Assembly (NCBI GenBank): GCA_007125955.1
Contig: SLCF01000086.1
Span: 1 to 36,613 of the forward strand
Source of the DNA: Bacteroidales bacterium
GTDB taxonomy: Bacteria; Bacteroidota; Bacteroidia; Bacteroidales; PUMT01
Direction: 5' to 3'
Length of the DNA: 36,613 bases
This document shows, piece by piece, positions 19,865-33,937 of the stretch (the stretch's first letter is position 1; the number at the start of each line of letters is the position of its first letter). Under the pieces are notes generated by a model. The model worked only from the letters and a program-made list of their open reading frames with translations, was not told where the DNA came from and did no database searches. A program made the position numbers and the translations under genes.

Positions 19865-22800
19865 TTAAACTTTTATCCCCATGAAAAGCACGTCATCCAC
19901 CTGTTCGTGATCTCCCTTCCACAGGTAAAAATTGTTCTTAATGAACTTGTACTGGTCTTCCATCTGTTTATCGCATATATCGGAGATGAGATTCTTAAGT
20001 TTTACCATTTTGAATTTTTTTCCGTGGGGACCTCCGAACTGGTCAGGGAAGCCATCAGAGAACATATAGACAATATCGCCGGGGTTGAGCTGGAATGATT
20101 GATTATCAAAAGTTTTGTTTTCCATTACAAAACCGCCGATAGAGTTTCTGCTGCCTCTAAGGTAAATTAGTTCAGAGTTTTGCAATATTATTATCGGGCG
20201 CATTGCAGACGCAAAGCGCATGAATTTTGTTTTGACATCTATCTCACAAACCGTTATATCCATCCCGTCAACTGAGTTGAGGTTTTTGTCGATGTTCTGG
20301 TTAAGTGTACTGGTTATCTCCATGTCAAGTGTTTTAAGAACATCAGCAGGAGAATTAACGTCTTTACGCATGCAGATATCTTTTATGAGCGTTGTTCCTA
20401 TCATTGACATGAAAGCCCCAGGAACACCGTGTCCGGTAGAGTCGGCACACACCACAACGAATTTTTCCTTATTAACCATATCGAACCAGTAGAAGTCCCC
20501 ACTCACTATATCTCTTGGCTGGTAAAAAATGAATGATGATGAAAAATTCTCCTGCAGTTTATCAAAGGAGGGTAATATGCTTGCCTGGATCCGCTGCGCA
20601 TAGTTAATACTGTCGGTTATATCCCGGTTTTTGGTTTCTATTTCATCCCTCTGCTTCACTACCTCCTTCGTCCTTATAGCCAGCTCATTTTCAATATGCT
20701 CCTTCTCTTTCCTGAGCTTGTGTTCTCTTATTTTTACGTACAAACGCAATGATATGCCAATAATTAATGCAATACCCAGGTAGAAATACCATTTTTTCCA
20801 TAAAGGTTTACCTATGGTGATATTGAGTGTGAAAGGCTCTTCATTGTACATCCCTTCCGAATTGTATGCCCTGAGCAAAAAAGTATATTCACCGTCGTCT
20901 ATCCTGGGATAATAGGCAAACTGCATATCTGTCGGCGAAGACCAGTCGAAATCGTATCCCTCCAGCTTATAGCGGTATTTAACCTGTTCCGGATTTGTAT
21001 AGTCAAGCCCTATAAAATCTATTCTCAGCCTGTAACTGCCATAGGGAAGTATCACCTCCTCATGGATACTTTTTTCATCATCCGAAACCTGTATGGAAGT
21101 TATATTAATAATGGGAGGATTATCAGGTGCATTCTCCCTGCTTCCGTCGAATATTACCAGCCCCTTAGTTGTTCCGAAAAGCAGCTTTCCGTCCCTGTCC
21201 CTGAAAAAACTGTTGTAATTTGAACTTCCTTCAATACCGTTTTCATTTCCAAAAACCCTTATAAAATCATTCCGCGTATTTATCCGGCTTATTCCATGCC
21301 TGTGGCCAATCCATACATAACCGTGATGATCTGTTATAAGACTGTAGCAGTAATTGCTTGCAAGTCCTTCATCAATGGTGAAATGTTTTATTGTATCTGA
21401 GTAAATCTTAATCGCTCCGTTACCGTCTGTTGCAGCCCAGATGTCACCGTTTTTATCCTCTGCAACTGCAGTAAAGTTAAGGTCAATATTAGAAAGAAAC
21501 AGATCCCTCCTGGTAGTGAGATTAATAGGACCTTTGCTGCGTGTAGCCGCCCAGATGTATCCTTTGCTGTCCTGGTGAAGGTCCCTTATAAAATTGTAGG
21601 GCAGTCCCTGATCAGTACCCAACCTTTCCGTCTCTCCTGTATTAAGATTGAAGCGGAATACGCCCCCGTTGGTTGCCATCCATAGTTCATTTCTAATGCT
21701 GTCAGTAAGCAGGTAATTGACTGAATTTTCCGATGAGTTGCGTGACGAAAAGTAGAGGGCTGCCTCGCCGGTTTGCGTGTCAAACCTGTACAATCCGCTC
21801 TGATGCGTTCCTGCCCATAAAGTACCTTCCTCCCCCGCGGCAAGTGCCGTAAATTCATCCCGTGGCAGGCCCTTTCCCGGAGGGAAAAACCCGGTCTCCG
21901 TCGGATCTTCCGGATTCATTTTAAGTATCCCCTGTTCACCACCCAGCCAATAATATCCTTCATGATATGCAACAGCAAGCACATTTTCCCCGAAATCCGC
22001 ATGAGGTTCCGGATATATTGAAATTGCCTCATCGTTCAGAAGTGATATACCGTTTCCGTAAGTAGCAAACCAGTATATTCCTTCATTATCCTGAAAGACC
22101 TGTTTTATCATATTACCCGGCAGTCCGTTATCAGATGAATACTGTATTACCCTGTCATCTTCTTCGGCACCTTTTACAATCCTGTAAGCCCCGTTACCGA
22201 AAGTGCTTAACCAGACATCTTCCTTATTGTCAATAAAAATATGCTCAACATCTATTCCCGTTAGCCCCCATTTATCACCTGCGTTCACTGCGCTGAAAGA
22301 ACCGGATTCCCAATCTTCAGCATACAGTTTGAAAACGCCTCTGTTAGTACCTGTCAGAAATGCTTCTTGATTATCCAGGTATTTTATAGCCTTTATGCTG
22401 ACCGCGGGAATTTCCTCAATTTGCCCTGTTATGGCAGGTGCACGGTCACTGTCGTATTCATAAAGGAAAAGACCTTCGGATGTTCCCGCAAGAAGCCTTT
22501 CTCCGGATATCAGATAAACAGAATTGAGCATCATTTCGGAAAACTCCTCACTGAAGATCTCAACTGTCATATCTTTGCTTATACGGATAAGACCGTCTCT
22601 CTGACTTGCAACAATAATATTTCCCAGCGGGTCTTCATGAAAGCCTGTTATTGTAGTCCTAACCTGTTCATTTTCAATAAGGGTGAAGTTTCTCCCGTCA
22701 TAAACAGTGATTTGTCCGTTGTTAAACCCGAACCACATCCTGTTGTCACTGGCGGTATAAGTTGATGTAGCCAGATCTGCCGGAATATTTTCTTGTCCTC

Positions 22801-23026
22801 CATTAGCCAAAAAGGTGAGTCCGTTAAAACGGCAAAGTCCGGGACCCGCCCCAAACCACATAAAACCGGCTGGGTCCTGGTTTATTGTGTATACAAATGA
22901 GTTGCAAATTCCACTCTCCACTCCGTAGTTCCTGAAGTTCAGCAGTTGTGGGTGTGAGTTGAAGATTACCGAGAAGCCAAGAATTATAGAAAGTATAATT
23001 GATTTGTAATTACTGTCTGTTAGCAT
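19865..23026 (-). CDS. Propeller sensor with SpoIIE/PP2C phosphatase output
   Basis: The protein has 1053 residues. A signal anchor or signal peptide (about 8-24) is followed by roughly 600 residues of repeated beta-propeller blades of the two-component-regulator propeller type (recurring D..G..W.G/AT..G...). A Y_Y_Y domain (about 640-738), one membrane helix (about 747-764), a coiled coil (765-805) and a cytoplasmic SpoIIE-type PP2C phosphatase come next. The phosphatase metal-binding motifs are GDFYWFD (844-850), CADSTGHGVPGAF (860-872), FSDGFPDQ (991-998) and Asp1044-Asp1045. The sensor half is the one found in hybrid histidine kinases, but the output is a Ser/Thr phosphatase, which elsewhere acts on anti-sigma antagonists. 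It is the last gene of the surface-protein cluster, 20 bases after its neighbour. No anti-sigma partner is in the window. Confidence 0.9.
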   Translation of the reverse strand: MLTDSNYKSIILSIILGFSVIFNSHPQLLNFRNYGVESGICNSFVYTINQDPAGFMWFGAGPGLCRFNGLTFLANGGQENIPADLATSTYTASDNRMWFGFNNGQITVYDGRNFTLIENEQVRTTITGFHEDPLGNIIVASQRDGLIRISKDMTVEIFSEEFSEMMLNSVYLISGERLLAGTSEGLFLYEYDSDRAPAITGQIEEIPAVSIKAIKYLDNQEAFLTGTNRGVFKLYAEDWESGSFSAVNAGDKWGLTGIDVEHIFIDNKEDVWLSTFGNGAYRIVKGAEEDDRVIQYSSDNGLPGNMIKQVFQDNEGIYWFATYGNGISLLNDEAISIYPEPHADFGENVLAVAYHEGYYWLGGEQGILKMNPEDPTETGFFPPGKGLPRDEFTALAAGEEGTLWAGTHQSGLYRFDTQTGEAALYFSSRNSSENSVNYLLTDSIRNELWMATNGGVFRFNLNTGETERLGTDQGLPYNFIRDLHQDSKGYIWAATRSKGPINLTTRRDLFLSNIDLNFTAVAEDKNGDIWAATDGNGAIKIYSDTIKHFTIDEGLASNYCYSLITDHHGYVWIGHRHGISRINTRNDFIRVFGNENGIEGSSNYNSFFRDRDGKLLFGTTKGLVIFDGSRENAPDNPPIINITSIQVSDDEKSIHEEVILPYGSYRLRIDFIGLDYTNPEQVKYRYKLEGYDFDWSSPTDMQFAYYPRIDDGEYTFLLRAYNSEGMYNEEPFTLNITIGKPLWKKWYFYLGIALIIGISLRLYVKIREHKLRKEKEHIENELAIRTKEVVKQRDEIETKNRDITDSINYAQRIQASILPSFDKLQENFSSSFIFYQPRDIVSGDFYWFDMVNKEKFVVVCADSTGHGVPGAFMSMIGTTLIKDICMRKDVNSPADVLKTLDMEITSTLNQNIDKNLNSVDGMDITVCEIDVKTKFMRFASAMRPIIILQNSELIYLRGSRNSIGGFVMENKTFDNQSFQLNPGDIVYMFSDGFPDQFGGPHGKKFKMVKLKNLISDICDKQMEDQYKFIKNNFYLWKGDHEQVDDVLFMGIKV

Positions 23027-25442: not shown

Positions 25443-26354
25443 TTAAAAATATCTCGGATTTACCGCCCTTCCCCGGTAAATAAAATCGTATATCAGCATT
25501 ATTTCGTGTGATCCGTTGTTATATTTATTTAGTGTTCCGAGTGAATGGTCGTATGTATATCCTATTCTTAACTGGTCGTTGATCTGGAACTTTACAAGTC
25601 CAACCACCACATCCTCTATCCTGTATGATCCTCCCACCCAAAGGAAATTCCCGAAAATGAAGGAAAGGTTGGCGTCAACCTGGAGGGGATTTTCCCTGTC
25701 GTATTTTATAAGGAGTGAGGGTTTGATCCTGAATCCCTGATTGCCAAGCACAATGCCTGAAGTGAAAAGGTAGTTGTAGTTTTTCGGGTCGTGGTAAACG
25801 GATACCTTCCCGTTGCTGAGACTGTCGCTCAGGAACATCGGTATGGAAGCGCCGGCAAAGAAATGATTTGTATGGTAATAAATTCCAAAACCGAAATTAG
25901 GGATTATATCCTGAGAAGACTCTGTAAAGGAGATGTCTCCGGGGTCATGGACGTTTAATTCATTCCAGTTGGCATTTCTTATAGTAAGCCCGCCCTTTAA
26001 TCCGAATGCCAGTCTTCCCCTTCCGGCATTGAATCTCCAGGCATAGTTTGTGAATATACTCAAATTGTTGCGGACATCGATCTTTTCGTTGAATACCAGC
26101 AAGCCAAGTGCAATATTCCGGTTTCTGAGCGGTGTGTGTGTGCTGAAGGTCTGGCTCACCGGTGCTCCTTCAAATCCCACCCATTGATTGCGGTATCCGG
26201 CAGATATATTAAGAGCATCACGGCTTCCTGCATATGCCGGGTTCAGAGCCAGTCCGTTTAGCATATACTGGCTGTAAACCGGGAACAGGTGCTGCGCAAT
26301 ATTATTGCAGTTAATTAAAAACAGTCCGGCTAATATGATTATAACTTTCTTCAC
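25443..26354 (-). CDS. PorP/SprF family T9SS outer-membrane protein
   Basis: This 303-residue protein has a signal peptide (about 1-20) and the family's opening FPVYSQYMLNGLALNPAYAG, then NISAGYRNQWVGFEGAP, followed by alternating strands of a beta-barrel ending YDFIYRGRAVNPRYF. SprF of Flavobacterium johnsoniae is required to place the adhesin SprB on the surface, and PorP belongs to the type IX secretion machinery of Porphyromonas. Genes of this family commonly follow genes for proteins with type B sorting domains, exactly as here (16 bases after the large surface-protein gene). It most likely serves that protein rather than the core secretion machine. Confidence 0.93.
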   Translation of the reverse strand: MKKVIIILAGLFLINCNNIAQHLFPVYSQYMLNGLALNPAYAGSRDALNISAGYRNQWVGFEGAPVSQTFSTHTPLRNRNIALGLLVFNEKIDVRNNLSIFTNYAWRFNAGRGRLAFGLKGGLTIRNANWNELNVHDPGDISFTESSQDIIPNFGFGIYYHTNHFFAGASIPMFLSDSLSNGKVSVYHDPKNYNYLFTSGIVLGNQGFRIKPSLLIKYDRENPLQVDANLSFIFGNFLWVGGSYRIEDVVVGLVKFQINDQLRIGYTYDHSLGTLNKYNNGSHEIMLIYDFIYRGRAVNPRYF

Positions 26355-26370: not shown

Positions 26371-29300
26371 TTATCTTCTGATAACTATAAATCCCTTGTA
26401 TGTATATTTGTCATCAACCTCAAGTATATAGTAATACGTATCATTCGGAAGGATATTTCCGTTACGGTTCCTTCCGTCCCAGTCGTTCTGGTAGTTAAAT
26501 GCCCGGTAAACCTCGTTTCCCTGTCTGTTGAAAACAACAAGACGGTTACTGGAAGAGTTTTCCAGCCCCTTTATCACAAAAAAGTCGTTTAACCCGCTAT
26601 TGTTGGGAGAGAAACCTGTAGGAGCATCCAGGTCGCTTACATGTATGCTTACCAGGTCGGTACTGACGGGGCATACGCCATTTATTACACTCCATTCGAA
26701 AATATTTTCACCCATCTCAAGACCGGTTACTTCAGTCAGAGGGTCGTTTTCTGAAATTATATTGCCGCTTCCCGATACAATACCCCAAATACCTGTTCCA
26801 ACCGCGGGCATCTCTGCATCCATAAATGTTCGGAAATCGAACTGCAGTGACTGATCTGGGCCTGCATTTGCCTGAGACGGTTCTTCGTAGAATGTTACAT
26901 ATATTATGTCTGATGCGGAACAGAGCCAGTTCACTTCAGTCCATACAAACTGATGGGTTCCGTATTCGGTTACAGTTCCATCAGCACCGGGATCGGAGGG
27001 ATCAGGGTTAAATTCTGCTGATGTGTAAGGTGTGCTCCATGTACCGTTGCCGAAACTGGGCAATGCATCCAGTTCAGTTGTGAGTCCGCATGCCTCTGAA
27101 TCTTCCCCGGCATTCGCATCAGGATAACCGTAAACAGTGACAGATGCAGTACCGGTAAGGTCCTCGTCCCTTGCCAGGCATCCGTAGGAGTCGGTTACAG
27201 AATAGATTGTGTATTCGAGTGTATTAGACTGGACATTAGTTTCCGGGGTAACTGCAACTTCAAATGTTTCGTCGGATATATCATTTATTTCTACAATAGT
27301 TGTTCCTTCAGTAAAACTTAGGTCCCACGGCCCGTCTCCGGAAAGACTGAATGTAAGAGTCGATTCATCGCCACTGCATATTTCGTCGAAGGTTTCGCTG
27401 ATATGTGCGGTTGAGAAAGGGAAGAAGTCTACAAAAACCGTGTTGCTGGTATCCCTGCATGCATCACCCTCACCTGATCTGACAATACGCCTGAAATAGG
27501 CCGGATTTTTTATTGCAGGAGCTTCATGGTTTATGTCACTGTTAACGGTTCCCGATGCGGTCCAGGTCTCCTCGTCAGTGCTTGATTCCCAACGGTAGCT
27601 GTAAAGAGGCTCATCGCCTCCCTGTGGCTGAGACCCGTGAAACTCTTCAGGCTGGGTGTCATAGCAAATCGTTTGAGGGTTGCCTATTATATTATTCGTT
27701 ATTGAAGGGAGAACGATTATCTCAATATGCTGAGATGTATCGGTGCACATTCCCGAATTGATAATCCTTCTGAAGAAGGTTGTTTCCGGCAGTACGCCGG
27801 GTGACAAAGATTCCGTGTCAGCAGGGTCGTCTGCATCTGTCCAGTCCGAAAGATCCGTACTCTGTTCCCAAAGGTAATTGTATGTGCCTGTGCCTCCTTC
27901 CGCCGGTGTGGCTGATTGCAGCTCGTCCGGAGCTATACCCTCACATACGGTCTGATCAGCCTCAATAATATTGTTATTAATAAGCGGGTGAACGTACACG
28001 GGCAGAACATCGGAAGTATCTGCACACATTCCTGAAGTTACGATCCGGCGGTATTGGGTTGTGTCTGTGAGTGCTCCGGGGGCATAGTCAATGCCGGTGT
28101 TGTCGCCTTCCCCCTCATACCAGTCCGATCCTCCCGATGCCTGTTCCCACTGGTATTCAAAAACACCTGTTCCGCCCTGTGCAGGTTCAGCACCGGTAAA
28201 AGGAGCAGGTGTATCACCTTCACAAATTGTTTGTTCTTCGCTTATCAGGTTTCCGAGAATTTTTGGCTGAACTGTTATTTCCATAACGTTGCTGGAATCA
28301 ATAACCTGGTCGGGGTCATTGTCTTTCACAACCCTTCTGTACAGTGTTGTTTCAGTCAGAGCCTCCGGCTGGTAATTCTTTTCAACAGCCCCGGGTATTT
28401 GCTCCCATTCTTCCTGGGCGGGGGTTTTCCTGAACCATTCGTAGTAGTAGCCGTCAACCGGATGAGGAGCGCCTCCTTTCGGCATTGTCCCCTCTATCAA
28501 TACCGGAGTTTGTTCTTCGCATATCACCTGTTCTTCCTTTATGCCGTTAAACAGGAAACCGTTCAAAGTCATTTCAACCCCTGTAAGGTTCCCGCCCGGA
28601 TTTCCGTCACTTGCTCCGTGTGACATACCGCTTGAACCTGAACCAGGTTCATAATATTTGCCCGAAACCCCGCCTCCAAGATTGAGTGTTACTTCCCCTG
28701 GCAGATTGTGGATAGAAAGGATGGTCCCTCCGCCTCCTCCTCCGCCGGGACCGGACATTAAATCGTTCTGAACATTACCGCCGTTTCCGCCTCTGGCCCG
28801 GAGAGTGAGCTGGTTTTCAAAGTTGTCAACTGCCGCTATAATTGAACCTCCGCCTCCTCCTCCTCCGGCTCCTCCGTTTTCAGCATACTCTGTAACTGAA
28901 CCGCCGTTTGAGATAATATAATGTCCGTTGCCAACAATCCTGTCTGCTATTATTATAACCATTCCTCCCCCGTTTCCTCCTGCGGAAGCCACTTCACCAT
29001 TGCCTGATGTGGAGCCTCCTCCGCCACCGGCCATAAAGAAACGGCTCCCTATATACTCCTCGGTGAAAAAGTCATCCATCCTCTCCCCCGGAACCCCTCT
29101 CATCCTTTGGTCAATTTCACATGTTTCCTGTTCAAAACCACCGAGTCCGCCCTGTCCGGAATTAGCACCACCTCCTCCTCCTGCAAAATGGCCGTTTCCT
29201 CCGCCTCCGCCACCTGAGATCCTCCCCCTGCCATGGACAAAGTCATCTCCTATGGGTATCTGATCATCGCCCGTCCAGTAATATGTAACGGCGCCTTCTC

Positions 29301-29991
29301 CTTTTCTTCCGGCCATCTGGGAGCCTTCCGGGTAATGAAATTCCAGGTAGGCTTCGGGATTTTCTGAAGAACACTCATCTATTGTGCGCAATGTCGGAGT
29401 TCCGCCTGAAAAACCCTTTCCTGTGGCATTTATATCGGCCTCAAGGGTAAGAGTGTTGGTTACTATCAGTGCTATTACACCGCCCTTGTCTCCGTCCCAT
29501 TCATCTGCTGTTAACTCTCCCGTTACAGTTGCATTTTCAAACCCCCTTACTCTCACAAGCTGTACTGTTTCAGAGGCGTTATAGGATTTCATCAGATCGC
29601 GGGTGAATATAATGCTGTTTCCGGTTATTTCACTGATGACAAGAAACTCGTAGTTTCCTGAATTGTTGAAGAATTGCTTTTTCCCCCAGTTGAGTCCTCC
29701 ATCACTTTCATCAAGAGTGATCCCTATACCTTTCATTTGTATGATCAGAACGGTATCTCCGGGAGAGAAGAGATCCGGATCGTCAACTGTTACAGAGTTG
29801 TCTGAAGTTACGTCTGTGACTTTTGCGTAACTGTTTATGCTTCCGGAGATATTCGCCTGGGAATAAGATTCACAGAACGATATGCTAAGCATTAGCAAAG
29901 TGAAAAAAATATATATTCCGGAAGATTTCAGGTACAAAATAACAATTTTTGGTTTTAAAAAACAGCCCAGTATTTTTTGAATACAAAACAT
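26371..29991 (-). CDS. Large surface protein with T9SS type B (gliding-motility C-terminal) sorting domain
   Basis: The protein has 1206 residues. The N-terminus has an unusually long lead (about 26 residues) before a hydrophobic stretch ending near SFCESYSQA. A beta-rich region to about residue 256 is followed by a glycine-rich block (258-470) with runs of up to seven Gly. Four repeats of about 90 residues come next (roughly 485-858), each with a Q-V/T-I/V-C-E opening, a Y.Y.W(E) strand and a (F/Y)RR(I/V) ending. Two further Ig/PKD-like modules follow. The C-terminal about 85 residues (FSPNNSGLNDFF to YTYKGFIVIRR) are the CHU_C/type B sorting domain that routes proteins through T9SS. It leads the five-gene cluster and is probably a surface adhesin. 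Confidence 0.92.
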   Translation of the reverse strand: MFCIQKILGCFLKPKIVILYLKSSGIYIFFTLLMLSISFCESYSQANISGSINSYAKVTDVTSDNSVTVDDPDLFSPGDTVLIIQMKGIGITLDESDGGLNWGKKQFFNNSGNYEFLVISEITGNSIIFTRDLMKSYNASETVQLVRVRGFENATVTGELTADEWDGDKGGVIALIVTNTLTLEADINATGKGFSGGTPTLRTIDECSSENPEAYLEFHYPEGSQMAGRKGEGAVTYYWTGDDQIPIGDDFVHGRGRISGGGGGGNGHFAGGGGGANSGQGGLGGFEQETCEIDQRMRGVPGERMDDFFTEEYIGSRFFMAGGGGGSTSGNGEVASAGGNGGGMVIIIADRIVGNGHYIISNGGSVTEYAENGGAGGGGGGGSIIAAVDNFENQLTLRARGGNGGNVQNDLMSGPGGGGGGGTILSIHNLPGEVTLNLGGGVSGKYYEPGSGSSGMSHGASDGNPGGNLTGVEMTLNGFLFNGIKEEQVICEEQTPVLIEGTMPKGGAPHPVDGYYYEWFRKTPAQEEWEQIPGAVEKNYQPEALTETTLYRRVVKDNDPDQVIDSSNVMEITVQPKILGNLISEEQTICEGDTPAPFTGAEPAQGGTGVFEYQWEQASGGSDWYEGEGDNTGIDYAPGALTDTTQYRRIVTSGMCADTSDVLPVYVHPLINNNIIEADQTVCEGIAPDELQSATPAEGGTGTYNYLWEQSTDLSDWTDADDPADTESLSPGVLPETTFFRRIINSGMCTDTSQHIEIIVLPSITNNIIGNPQTICYDTQPEEFHGSQPQGGDEPLYSYRWESSTDEETWTASGTVNSDINHEAPAIKNPAYFRRIVRSGEGDACRDTSNTVFVDFFPFSTAHISETFDEICSGDESTLTFSLSGDGPWDLSFTEGTTIVEINDISDETFEVAVTPETNVQSNTLEYTIYSVTDSYGCLARDEDLTGTASVTVYGYPDANAGEDSEACGLTTELDALPSFGNGTWSTPYTSAEFNPDPSDPGADGTVTEYGTHQFVWTEVNWLCSASDIIYVTFYEEPSQANAGPDQSLQFDFRTFMDAEMPAVGTGIWGIVSGSGNIISENDPLTEVTGLEMGENIFEWSVINGVCPVSTDLVSIHVSDLDAPTGFSPNNSGLNDFFVIKGLENSSSNRLVVFNRQGNEVYRAFNYQNDWDGRNRNGNILPNDTYYYILEVDDKYTYKGFIVIRR

Positions 29992-30010: not shown

Positions 30011-30020
30011 CCCCCCCCCC
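30011..30020 (-). repeat. Homopolymer run of ten G (minus strand) in the promoter/leader of the surface-protein operon
   Basis: Ten consecutive C on the plus strand (G on the coding strand) lie 19 bases before the ATG of the large surface protein and two bases after the -7 box TATATTTG. A mononucleotide run this long is prone to slipped-strand change. The tract is in no reading frame with an upstream start codon, so any effect would be on transcription start or leader rather than on the protein frame. Confidence 0.9.
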
Positions 30021-30022
30021 TG

Positions 30023-30030
30023 CAAATATA
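30023..30030 (-). promoter_or_regulatory. -7 box (TATATTTG) of the surface-protein operon
   Basis: This is an exact TAnnTTTG on the minus strand, 31 bases before the ATG at 29991. The expected transcription start falls inside the adjacent run of ten G. No TTG is seen at the -33 position. Confidence 0.55.
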
Positions 30031-30150: not shown

Positions 30151-30158
30151 CAAATATA
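30151..30158 (-). promoter_or_regulatory. Second candidate -7 box (TATATTTG) upstream of the surface-protein operon
   Basis: This repeats the same 12 bases (TATATTTGCAGG on the minus strand) as the proximal box at 30019-30030. It lies about 160 bases before the ATG, in the 247-base gap after the histidine kinase gene. Confidence 0.4.
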
Positions 30159-30238
30159 TTAACGGCTTATGAGGAATATCTGTTTATGGGTTTTTTAAAC
30201 CCCTGCCTGTTAAACCGGGTTCTTTCCTGCAGTGAAAT

Positions 30239-33200
30239 TCACTCCTCTTTGAATACAGGCAGTCTGAAACAGAAAGTACTTCCTTTTCCGGTTTCGGTTT
30301 CAAACCAGATTTCCCCGCCTGAATTTTCAATTATATTTTTTGTTATTGCAAGCCCCAGTCCCATTCCACCCGATTTTGTGGTAAAATTGGGACGAAACAT
30401 TTTATCTTTCATTTGTTCAGGAACTCCCTGTCCGGTGTCGGTTATCTTAACTGTGACTTTATCATTATCTGTATCAGTTTCAATTTTTATTTCACCCTTT
30501 TCGTTTTTCGGGATGGATTGAATAGCGTTTTTTATCAGGTTCAGGAAAGCACGGTTAAGCTGCTTTTTGTCCATGTAAACCGGAATATTGCTGTGATCCC
30601 TGAAATCAGTTACAAACTCAATATTATCATAATTCACAAACAACTCAAGTGCATTTTTTAACTGCTTGACAATATCTGTCTTTTGAGGGCTTGCTTTAGG
30701 CATTGTGGCAAAGTTTGAGAACTCTGTTGCTATTGCAGACAGGTTTTCTATTTGTTCAATAAGCGATTTGCAAGTGCGGTCGAAAACTTCTTCCCACCTG
30801 GGAGTCTTGTCCTCCTTAGCCCTTTGCAAGTGCTGAACACTAAGTTTCATTGGAGTAAGAGGATTTTTTATTTCGTGTGCTATCTGTCTTGCCATTTCCC
30901 TCCAGGCACCTTCACGTTCTGATTTGGCGAGGAGTTCAGCGCTTGTCTCCAGTTCGGTGACCATTCTGTTATAATCCTTTACAAGGTTTCCTATCTCGTC
31001 ATCCCCCCTGTAGTTTATCTGTTCGTTGCTTTGTTCAAGTTTTATTTTCCGCAGTTTGTCCTGTAGAAGTTTGAGGGGTTTTGTTATCTGGTTTGATATA
31101 AATATTGCAATAACAATTGTTATGAGTATAAGAAGTGCATAAATGTTGACAACTGCAACCACAAGAGTGTATATTTCCTTCTGCAGGTCGCTTTGCCTTG
31201 TAAAATAGGGAAGGTTAAGGTAAGCCAGCACCTTATTGTCAACATTCGTGAATGGAACATATGCTGACAGGTAGGACAATTTGCCTATTGCTTCTTTGTG
31301 AACAAACCTTGGATTTTTTTCAATAACCATACTGGAATAAGCGTAGGGGTCCATTATTTCGCCGGTTAGCTCAAGCTCAAAAATTTCCGGACGTGAAGAA
31401 GCATAAAGTTTCCCTTCAAGGTTATACAGGTTGATATCAGTATAAAAAACATTTGAAAGGTCGATCAGCATTCCGGTAATATAATCGCTCATTTCAGGAG
31501 GAAGCTCCTTTTCCATCCCAAACTCGGTTTCAAGTTCAACCGTTACGGATTGTATTTTTTCAGTGATATTTTCATACTGTTTGTTTTCAAATTGCCTTAT
31601 ATTGTAATAGATTGTTCCTGCCCCGACAATTACCAGTGAAAGCAAAAGAATTGATATCATCGACAATTGAATGCGGCTTTTAAGGCTGAGCCTGAATTGA
31701 CTTCTCTTGAGGGGCAGGTTGTATATCAGAATTGATATGCCGAGCAGTGTAAAGAAGAATATGAAATTATATGAAAAGGAGGTAAGTATATTGATTGTTT
31801 TGGTTTCCGGCTTGCTCAGTATTATTGAGTTATCTTCATCTAACCTGTAAATCAGATGGCAGTACCCGTCACTTTCCATGAATGTGAAAGCTTTCTCTTC
31901 ATCTGTATGGTATTTTGACTCGAGTGCATATGGGAAATCGCCATGACGGGTGATCAAATTGTTTTTGTGATATTTTGCATATGAATAGTTCCTTATTGCA
32001 GGGTGGCGTGTTAGCTCCCCTTCAATGAGAAGTTCCGGGTATCCCAGATGTTCGGTTATAAGCCTCGAATCAAGCGAAACATAGACAGTTTTTTCATAGG
32101 GGTAGTGATCATACTGGAAAGATATTGAACCAAGGTAGCTTATTTGGTTGTTAAAATTGTCCAGGAAGAAGAAGTCAGATTCCGGATTGATCCTGATACC
32201 GTAATTGTAAATCATGTCTTCGAAAAATTCGTAACAATCGACCAGTTCATGAGTGCTTTCGAGATAAAGGTCGAAATCGGGAGCGCATGCCGCTACTTGC
32301 ATGTCGTATTTTCTGAAGAAACTGTTGAAATAATTAACATCAAGGTAGTCGAAAAGCTCAAACTCATCATAATCCATGCTCCCGAGCATATCCTCAAGCA
32401 ATGTATCGGATGCAAGTCTTTGTTCAACATCTTCAAGCAGAAATTCAGCTATCTGGTCACGTTCATTGGCAAGGTTTACCACCAGCACTTTACGTATGTT
32501 GTTCTCCTTTTCCCTGCTTTTATCGGTTACAAAGTAAAGTGTGAACAGTGATACAATAAAAACAATCAGCACCAGGTTGGGGTAGCTGAACCGCGATTTG
32601 TAGTACCTGATATAAAAAATGTAGCCCAGCACGGCAAGGTAGAAAAATGCTGAGAAAATGCTGAGGGTATATCCGGATGCATAATAGATCAAGACTCCGC
32701 ACGCAGAAATTATGAGTGAAATAAAAACAAAATCTCTCAGTCCTGCAAGCTTAGATGCAATGCAGACAATCCGGTCTGCAAACATCAGGAATGAAGCAAA
32801 AAGGAATGCTATTGCCAGGTATGCCAGAAAACTGTAAAGGTTGAGGTAGAAAAAATTGTGTACTTCCAGTTGTATACTTGAATTGATTATCAGTCCGGTA
32901 AAAAGATAGTGAAAGTAAAGAAATATCAATATAAGGAAAGATTTCAGCAGTATAATAACCACAAGATTCCTGAAGTAAGGCGGATTTGTGCCGCCTGTTG
33001 TGGACACAAAAAAATATTTTGAAAAAAGAAGTGAAATATAGAAAAGCAGGACAGCATTTATAAGCAGATCACCCAGCGAAGGGAAAGCAAATGATTTTGC
33101 ATAATGGTGGGGGGCAAACAGGGTAAAAGCCGAAAATATTTCAGGGAATCCGTACTTGAGCATCATCCAGCGAAGCAGGATCAAAAAGGCTACAACTATT

Positions 33201-33937
33201 GCAAACCATGTATTTATTCCTGTTTGAGAGCGGATATTCAAAATTTTGAAGCTTTTATAGATAAGCAACAGTATAAAGGCAAAAGAGATAAAATACAAAA
33301 CGGCGCAAAGTCTGGTGAATGATTTGCCTGAAACCGGAGGATCCGGAGGCATAAGTGAGAAGAGATATTCTCCCTTTCTGTTTCTAACAGGGAATCCCTT
33401 TTCTGAATCGAGTCCGAGTTTCACTTCCTGTCCGGGCCTGAAGTCGTCATTGTAAGAATTTAACAAAAACTGATTTTCAAACAGATAGTCGTTTTTTACC
33501 AGAATAAGGCCGGCAAGTGTTATGTCGGCTGACTTTTTTCTTATAGTCGCATAAACAGCGTTACCGGTAAGAAGCAAAGGCTCTTTTTGCTCTGTTATTC
33601 TTTCAAGTGATTGTTCAGGGACAACGTTGCTGTTCCAATATTTAAGCGAGTCATCTTTATAGACAAGAATAACAATTTTCTCTTTTTCAAATATTTCGAA
33701 ATAATCTCTGCCAGAATTTTCTATGAAGTGAAACAATCCTGATTTATTTATTTCATGAGATATTTCCTCTAACAGGGTTTCGGTTTTCTTCTCTTTTCTG
33801 TGGAGTGTTTCTGTAAAATTATCTTTGTTAACAGGACTGAACTCGAGATAATCGAGTTTTGCCTCGATCAGCAAGGCGGTTATCATGGCAAGAGCTGACG
33901 CTGCAAGCGGCCAGTATTTATATATTATTGAACTCAT
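30239..33937 (-). CDS. Large NtrY-like sensor histidine kinase
   Basis: The protein has 1232 residues. A membrane helix near 10-24, an extracytoplasmic domain (about 25-205), a bundle of roughly eight helices (about 207-470), a second extracytoplasmic domain (about 475-710), two further helices (about 720-740 and 757-778), a third sensory domain (about 780-920) and a last helix (925-948) lead to a HAMP linker (949-1000). The kinase core has the H-box His1021 in ARQIAHEIKNPLTPMKLSV, N-box Asn1137, G1 DTGQGVP (1167-1173) and G2 GMGLGLAI. The H-box wording is NtrY-like. No response-regulator gene is adjacent. It starts 60 bases after rlmH and is probably co-transcribed with it. Confidence 0.92.
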   Translation of the reverse strand: MSSIIYKYWPLAASALAMITALLIEAKLDYLEFSPVNKDNFTETLHRKEKKTETLLEEISHEINKSGLFHFIENSGRDYFEIFEKEKIVILVYKDDSLKYWNSNVVPEQSLERITEQKEPLLLTGNAVYATIRKKSADITLAGLILVKNDYLFENQFLLNSYNDDFRPGQEVKLGLDSEKGFPVRNRKGEYLFSLMPPDPPVSGKSFTRLCAVLYFISFAFILLLIYKSFKILNIRSQTGINTWFAIVVAFLILLRWMMLKYGFPEIFSAFTLFAPHHYAKSFAFPSLGDLLINAVLLFYISLLFSKYFFVSTTGGTNPPYFRNLVVIILLKSFLILIFLYFHYLFTGLIINSSIQLEVHNFFYLNLYSFLAYLAIAFLFASFLMFADRIVCIASKLAGLRDFVFISLIISACGVLIYYASGYTLSIFSAFFYLAVLGYIFYIRYYKSRFSYPNLVLIVFIVSLFTLYFVTDKSREKENNIRKVLVVNLANERDQIAEFLLEDVEQRLASDTLLEDMLGSMDYDEFELFDYLDVNYFNSFFRKYDMQVAACAPDFDLYLESTHELVDCYEFFEDMIYNYGIRINPESDFFFLDNFNNQISYLGSISFQYDHYPYEKTVYVSLDSRLITEHLGYPELLIEGELTRHPAIRNYSYAKYHKNNLITRHGDFPYALESKYHTDEEKAFTFMESDGYCHLIYRLDEDNSIILSKPETKTINILTSFSYNFIFFFTLLGISILIYNLPLKRSQFRLSLKSRIQLSMISILLLSLVIVGAGTIYYNIRQFENKQYENITEKIQSVTVELETEFGMEKELPPEMSDYITGMLIDLSNVFYTDINLYNLEGKLYASSRPEIFELELTGEIMDPYAYSSMVIEKNPRFVHKEAIGKLSYLSAYVPFTNVDNKVLAYLNLPYFTRQSDLQKEIYTLVVAVVNIYALLILITIVIAIFISNQITKPLKLLQDKLRKIKLEQSNEQINYRGDDEIGNLVKDYNRMVTELETSAELLAKSEREGAWREMARQIAHEIKNPLTPMKLSVQHLQRAKEDKTPRWEEVFDRTCKSLIEQIENLSAIATEFSNFATMPKASPQKTDIVKQLKNALELFVNYDNIEFVTDFRDHSNIPVYMDKKQLNRAFLNLIKNAIQSIPKNEKGEIKIETDTDNDKVTVKITDTGQGVPEQMKDKMFRPNFTTKSGGMGLGLAITKNIIENSGGEIWFETETGKGSTFCFRLPVFKEE

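Follow-up and report, generated by a model that had tools for sequence, protein, structure and literature searches.

The window analysed here is a stretch of 36,613 nucleotides of Bacteroidales DNA, and its source genome consists of 2.41 Mb in 165 contigs with 91% completeness. By direct reading, the minus strand carries, in this order, AAATTGTTTC, TATATTTG, CA, GGGGGGGGGG, CAAAGGCAGTAACCCCGGA and ATG. The box TATATTTG occupies positions 30023-30030 and the G10 homopolymer (C10 on the plus strand) positions 30011-30020, from which the 19 nt of CAAAGGCAGTAACCCCGGA lead to the ATG at 29991. This layout had been described in an earlier note, together with the remark that no second G or C run of such length had been noticed in the window, and both were confirmed, no other run of at least 10 being detected there. 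A second copy of TATATTTG, followed by CAGG, lies 128 nt upstream on the same strand (30151-30158) as part of a direct repeat (D1, 88% over 17 nt). Both boxes are flanked by an inverted repeat, GGTTTTAAAAAAC (29951-29963) and GTTTTTTAAACCC (30190-30202).

The open frame beginning at the ATG (26371-29991, minus strand) encodes a T9SS type B-sorted surface protein of 1206 amino acids, of which the N-terminal half is glycine-rich and the C-terminus carries the CHU_C/Bac_Flav_CTERM sorting domain (PF13585, 3.5e-23; TIGR04131, 9.9e-15), in agreement with the surface protein that had been placed downstream of the run. Its orthologs share 75 and 66% identity within the genus and about 50% within the family. 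Residues 50-429 (window 28705-29844) resemble the NCBIfam model AgmC_N with 182 bits, under the curated cut-off of 275; AgmC is a gliding motility protein. Downstream on the same strand is the gene for a PorP/SprF family T9SS outer-membrane protein (25443-26354; PF11751, 1.3e-71; TIGR03519, 2.3e-73), and the combination of a T9SS type B cargo protein with an adjacent PorP/SprF partner is thus present. Two further genes of the neighbourhood encode a Reg_prop/SpoIIE-phosphatase sensor (19865-23026) and, directly upstream of the promoter, a large HAMP-domain histidine kinase of the membrane (30239-33937).

The ATG at 29991 is the earliest start codon of the open frame and stands 19 nt past the run, as the earlier note stated, but it may not be the codon that is used. 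In the two relatives of the same genus, stop codons are located just upstream, no ATG is present, and the earliest usable codon is a TTG at about the matching place. The corresponding TTG (29935-29937, minus strand) would give a shorter protein with the conventional signal peptide MYLKSSGIYIFFTLLMLSISFCESYSQA, and on this comparison it may be the true start. With the ATG as start, the N-terminal extension would be longer; similar extensions, beginning at GTG, occur in the other genus of the family. Since the ATG is missing in the relatives of the genus, the leader of 19 nt may in fact be about 80 nt. Four orthologs (L003, L005, L008 and L011) lack an in-frame ATG near the expected start of the signal peptide, and the gene family apparently relies on GTG, TTG or rarer start codons.

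The box next to the run very probably represents a real sigma-A promoter element, as judged from its conservation and from the consensus of the genome itself. Upstream of the orthologous gene, TATATTTG was found in 10 of the 14 relatives of the family and TATATTTA in two more, so that a TATATTT[G/A] box exists in 12 of the 14 and is missing in the other two; in these related loci the box stands about 85-170 nt ahead of the onset of protein similarity. The promoter consensus derived from the same genome is TAnnTTTG-C-A, to which the CA after TATATTTG conforms. In the intergenic sample of this genome TAnnTTTG was counted 131 times against 70 for the reversed motif, an excess of about twofold, and the base that follows it is most often C and then A. 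The sequence at 30030-30023 matches the TAnnTTTG -7 box known for Bacteroidota sigma-A promoters (PMC7366714, PMC9723704), with which it agrees in sequence and in distance to the run, but the known consensus includes no G run, and in the present genome the box is mostly followed by A/T. By inspection, neither TTTG nor TTG was found at the usual distance upstream for a -33 element; this element was treated as non-defining because it is likewise not identifiable in F. johnsoniae (PMC7366714). The claim of a -7 box adjacent to the run is thus supported.

In F. psychrophilum, the sigma-A box spans positions -12 to -5 relative to the transcription start (PMC9723704). With the same geometry, transcription would start at about position 30018, the third G, and the published spacing therefore supports the view that the start lies within the run. 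The run is situated downstream of the -7 box, so changes in its length would leave the -33/-7 spacing of the promoter unaltered; slippage would act on the sequence that is transcribed first and on leader length. A structured leader or a known RNA family was rejected as an explanation, as the predicted folding of the leader was not better than that of shuffled sequences (z 0.89) and an Rfam search gave no match.

Conservation of the box does not extend to the run. Among the same 14 relatives, including the two of the same genus, none carries a G run after the box. The closest relative (G001, 75% protein identity) reads TATATTTACTGAGCC at the site, most of the others read TATATTTGTT, and one (L012) carries T7 directly after the box. 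The named relatives are Bacteroidetes/Bacteroidales MAGs, and the isolate names of the closest ones point to sediments. Copies of the same species were found neither in genome contigs nor in viral contigs, two collections that may omit near-identical records, nor among 198 genomes of the class.

The length of the run was compared with chance expectation using Markov models of orders 1-5 trained on 380 kb of this genome, the background statistics being taken from about 400 kb of sampled stretches and from genome-wide pattern counts. The whole genome contains 87 G/C runs of at least 7, ten of at least 9 and two of at least 10, the second run of 10 being inside a 2.4-kb open frame (C98:6126-6135). 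Across the family, the number of runs of at least 9 ranges from 0 to 12 per genome. Expected numbers of runs of at least 10 were 0.7-1.4 per genome with orders 2-5 and 4.1 with order 1, corresponding to 0.011-0.06 per window. Two runs observed against 0.7-4 expected indicate that the length of G10 is not exceptional on a genome-wide scale. For intergenic DNA alone, the G+C content of which (35%) is lower than that of the genome, only 0.09-0.11 runs of at least 10 were expected per genome. Intergenic runs are thus rarer than coding ones, and the placement of G10 between genes and next to a promoter is mildly unusual, though chosen post hoc.

A search of 393 genomes of the order looked for TANNTTTG followed, at a distance of 0-6 nt, by eight or more Gs. 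It yielded 18 raw matches representing 14 distinct sites in 12 genomes, compared with 15 distinct sites in 15 genomes for the C-run version of the pattern and 26 raw matches for the reversed-motif control. A recurrent promoter design within the order was rejected on these counts, and the lack of enrichment over both controls gives no sign of selection for G runs at start sites; chance is sufficient to explain the 14 sites. Some of them are promoter-like, and the closest match in architecture is a G9 directly after TATATTTGA (TATATTTGAG9; L171 1501-1509, genome G242), some 60 nt ahead of a gene whose product, on sequence inspection, resembles an outer-membrane SusC-type protein. Two other homopolymers came to light in other genomes. 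One is a G14 over the start of an open reading frame resembling an exopolysaccharide sugar transferase (L170 1510-1523, genome G354), which makes a stronger case for slipped-strand switching than does the present G10; the other is a C17 run close to a contig end (L205 164-180, genome G012).

The earlier note had interpreted the run as part of a candidate phase-variable promoter, with on/off or graded expression through slipped-strand mispairing. In such a promoter, the number of Gs at the beginning of the transcript would set initiation or promoter escape. The position of G10 directly at the predicted start of an operon for a surface-exposed T9SS protein is in line with this proposal, its length is within the range of slip-prone homopolymers (about 8 or more G/C in a promoter region), and poly-G tracts at or near transcription start sites have precedents. 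In Treponema pallidum, G tracts of similar length are likewise located near the starts of the outer-membrane protein genes tprE/G/J and tprL; transcription of tprL starts 4 nt downstream of a tract of 7-11 G, for which length variation was measured within isolates (PMC7864442). There, however, the start is just downstream of the tract, whereas the present run follows the -7 box and spans the predicted start. Neisseria meningitidis porA and opc and T. pallidum tp0126, as far as the cited account describes them, also carry G/C homopolymers in the promoters of surface-protein genes, but these tracts are placed between the boxes of the promoter or overlap them and, for porA and tp0126, act through spacing (PMC7864442), with respect to which the present run is neutral. 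Against phase variation stand the absence of the run from all 14 relatives, the fact that the order shows no excess of this architecture, and the solitary nature of the tract in its genome: no series of long G/C tracts at promoters or starts of surface genes was detected, coding starts being covered in part, and in this genome (G000) no other TAnnTTTG box is followed within 10 nt by eight or more Gs. No sign of variation of the run was obtained. Phase variation in Bacteroidota is mostly brought about by DNA inversion, and the titles and abstracts listed in literature searches contained no direct precedent for homopolymer phase variation in this phylum or of T9SS genes. Phase variation at this promoter is thus unproven and, on the comparative evidence, is not favoured; we regard it as doubtful. 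A narrower version, in which a recently evolved poly-G switch at the start rather than in the promoter spacer tunes the T9SS operon of an environmental Bacteroidota, either through stuttering or through the number of Gs at the 5' end, is judged unlikely.

The same run might affect transcription with the DNA unchanged, if RNA polymerase stutters on the Gs and output follows the GTP and CTP pools. The predicted start within a G run, with C as the first different base, resembles the pyrG-type start of B. subtilis and S. agalactiae, which gains extra Gs when pyrimidines are scarce, and stuttering of this kind was observed at 15% of the mapped start sites of Streptococcus agalactiae (PMC4448216); the T7 directly after the box in L012 might be read in the same direction. 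Here, however, the run is much longer than in the pyrG-type case, is not conserved and precedes a gene outside nucleotide metabolism, and no attenuator-like element was found, the sole terminator-like site of the scanned region being on the other strand. Such reiterative transcription is considered quite improbable as the role of the run. Use of the second TATATTTGCAGG box, 128 nt upstream, as an alternative promoter is possible and would place the run inside the 5' leader, where it could act post-transcriptionally as the target of an sRNA or as a length-dependent frame link. Upstream GTG and TTG codons would be in frame with the gene if the run had 9 or 12 Gs and out of frame with 7, 8, 10, 11 or 13, and the leader of Helicobacter pylori tlpB-hp0102 likewise contains a G repeat of about 6-16, which is the target of the C/U-rich sRNA RepG and with which RepG works best at 9-12 G (PMC8295292). 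Nevertheless, the closest relative (L002) has no box at the upstream position, whereas conservation does extend to the proximal one, the upstream start codons include no ATG, and no sRNA is known for the present run, which would be at the extreme 5' end unless transcription began at the upstream box. A leader function of this kind appears very unlikely. Length-dependent initiation, reiterative initiation and a leader effect are each possible, and none has positive evidence here. Inversion of the promoter between the flanking copies GGTTTTAAAAAAC and GTTTTTTAAACCC, with the G run incidental, would follow the mechanism usual in Bacteroidota, but this inverted repeat is A/T-rich, its score is not significant, since 16 sequences matched it when the region was randomised 100 times with a first-order Markov model, and no recombinase was recognised among the listed open reading frames of the window. 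An invertible promoter was rejected as extremely improbable.

The reading that we favour, with somewhat better than even confidence, is a species-specific expansion to G10 at a conserved sigma-A promoter of the T9SS surface-protein operon, for which a role as phase switch is possible but unproven. An ordinary promoter conserved in the family would have gained G10 at its transcription start region in one species, and the mRNA, starting at about the third G, would begin with about eight Gs. The run would probably have arisen as a by-product of neutral expansion by slippage, not as a switch under selection; its length may occasionally change and RNA polymerase may stutter on it to some extent, while the promoter spacing would be unaffected. 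In favour of neutral expansion are the retention of the box in 12 of 14 relatives with the run in none, two runs of at least 10 against 0.7-1.4 expected, 14 G sites against 15 C sites in the order, the lack of a promoter-associated set of tracts and the unremarkable folding of the leader (z 0.89). Counted against it are the rarity of intergenic runs of 10 relative to coding ones (about 0.1 expected) in combination with a location exactly at the start site of a surface gene, and the fact that G8-10 falls within the range in which tracts of other bacteria vary in length (tprL, 7-11 G; PMC7864442). As the closest relative shows only 75% amino-acid identity, both a recent gain of the run and its active use within the species would be compatible with the comparison.

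Should variation in the length of the run prove true, this promoter would add a poly-G switch to a phylum that varies phase mostly by DNA inversion, and the tract would be unusually placed with respect to the -7 box. For now, the case mainly illustrates that even a conspicuous homopolymer beside a promoter can belong to a single species and fall within what chance would produce.
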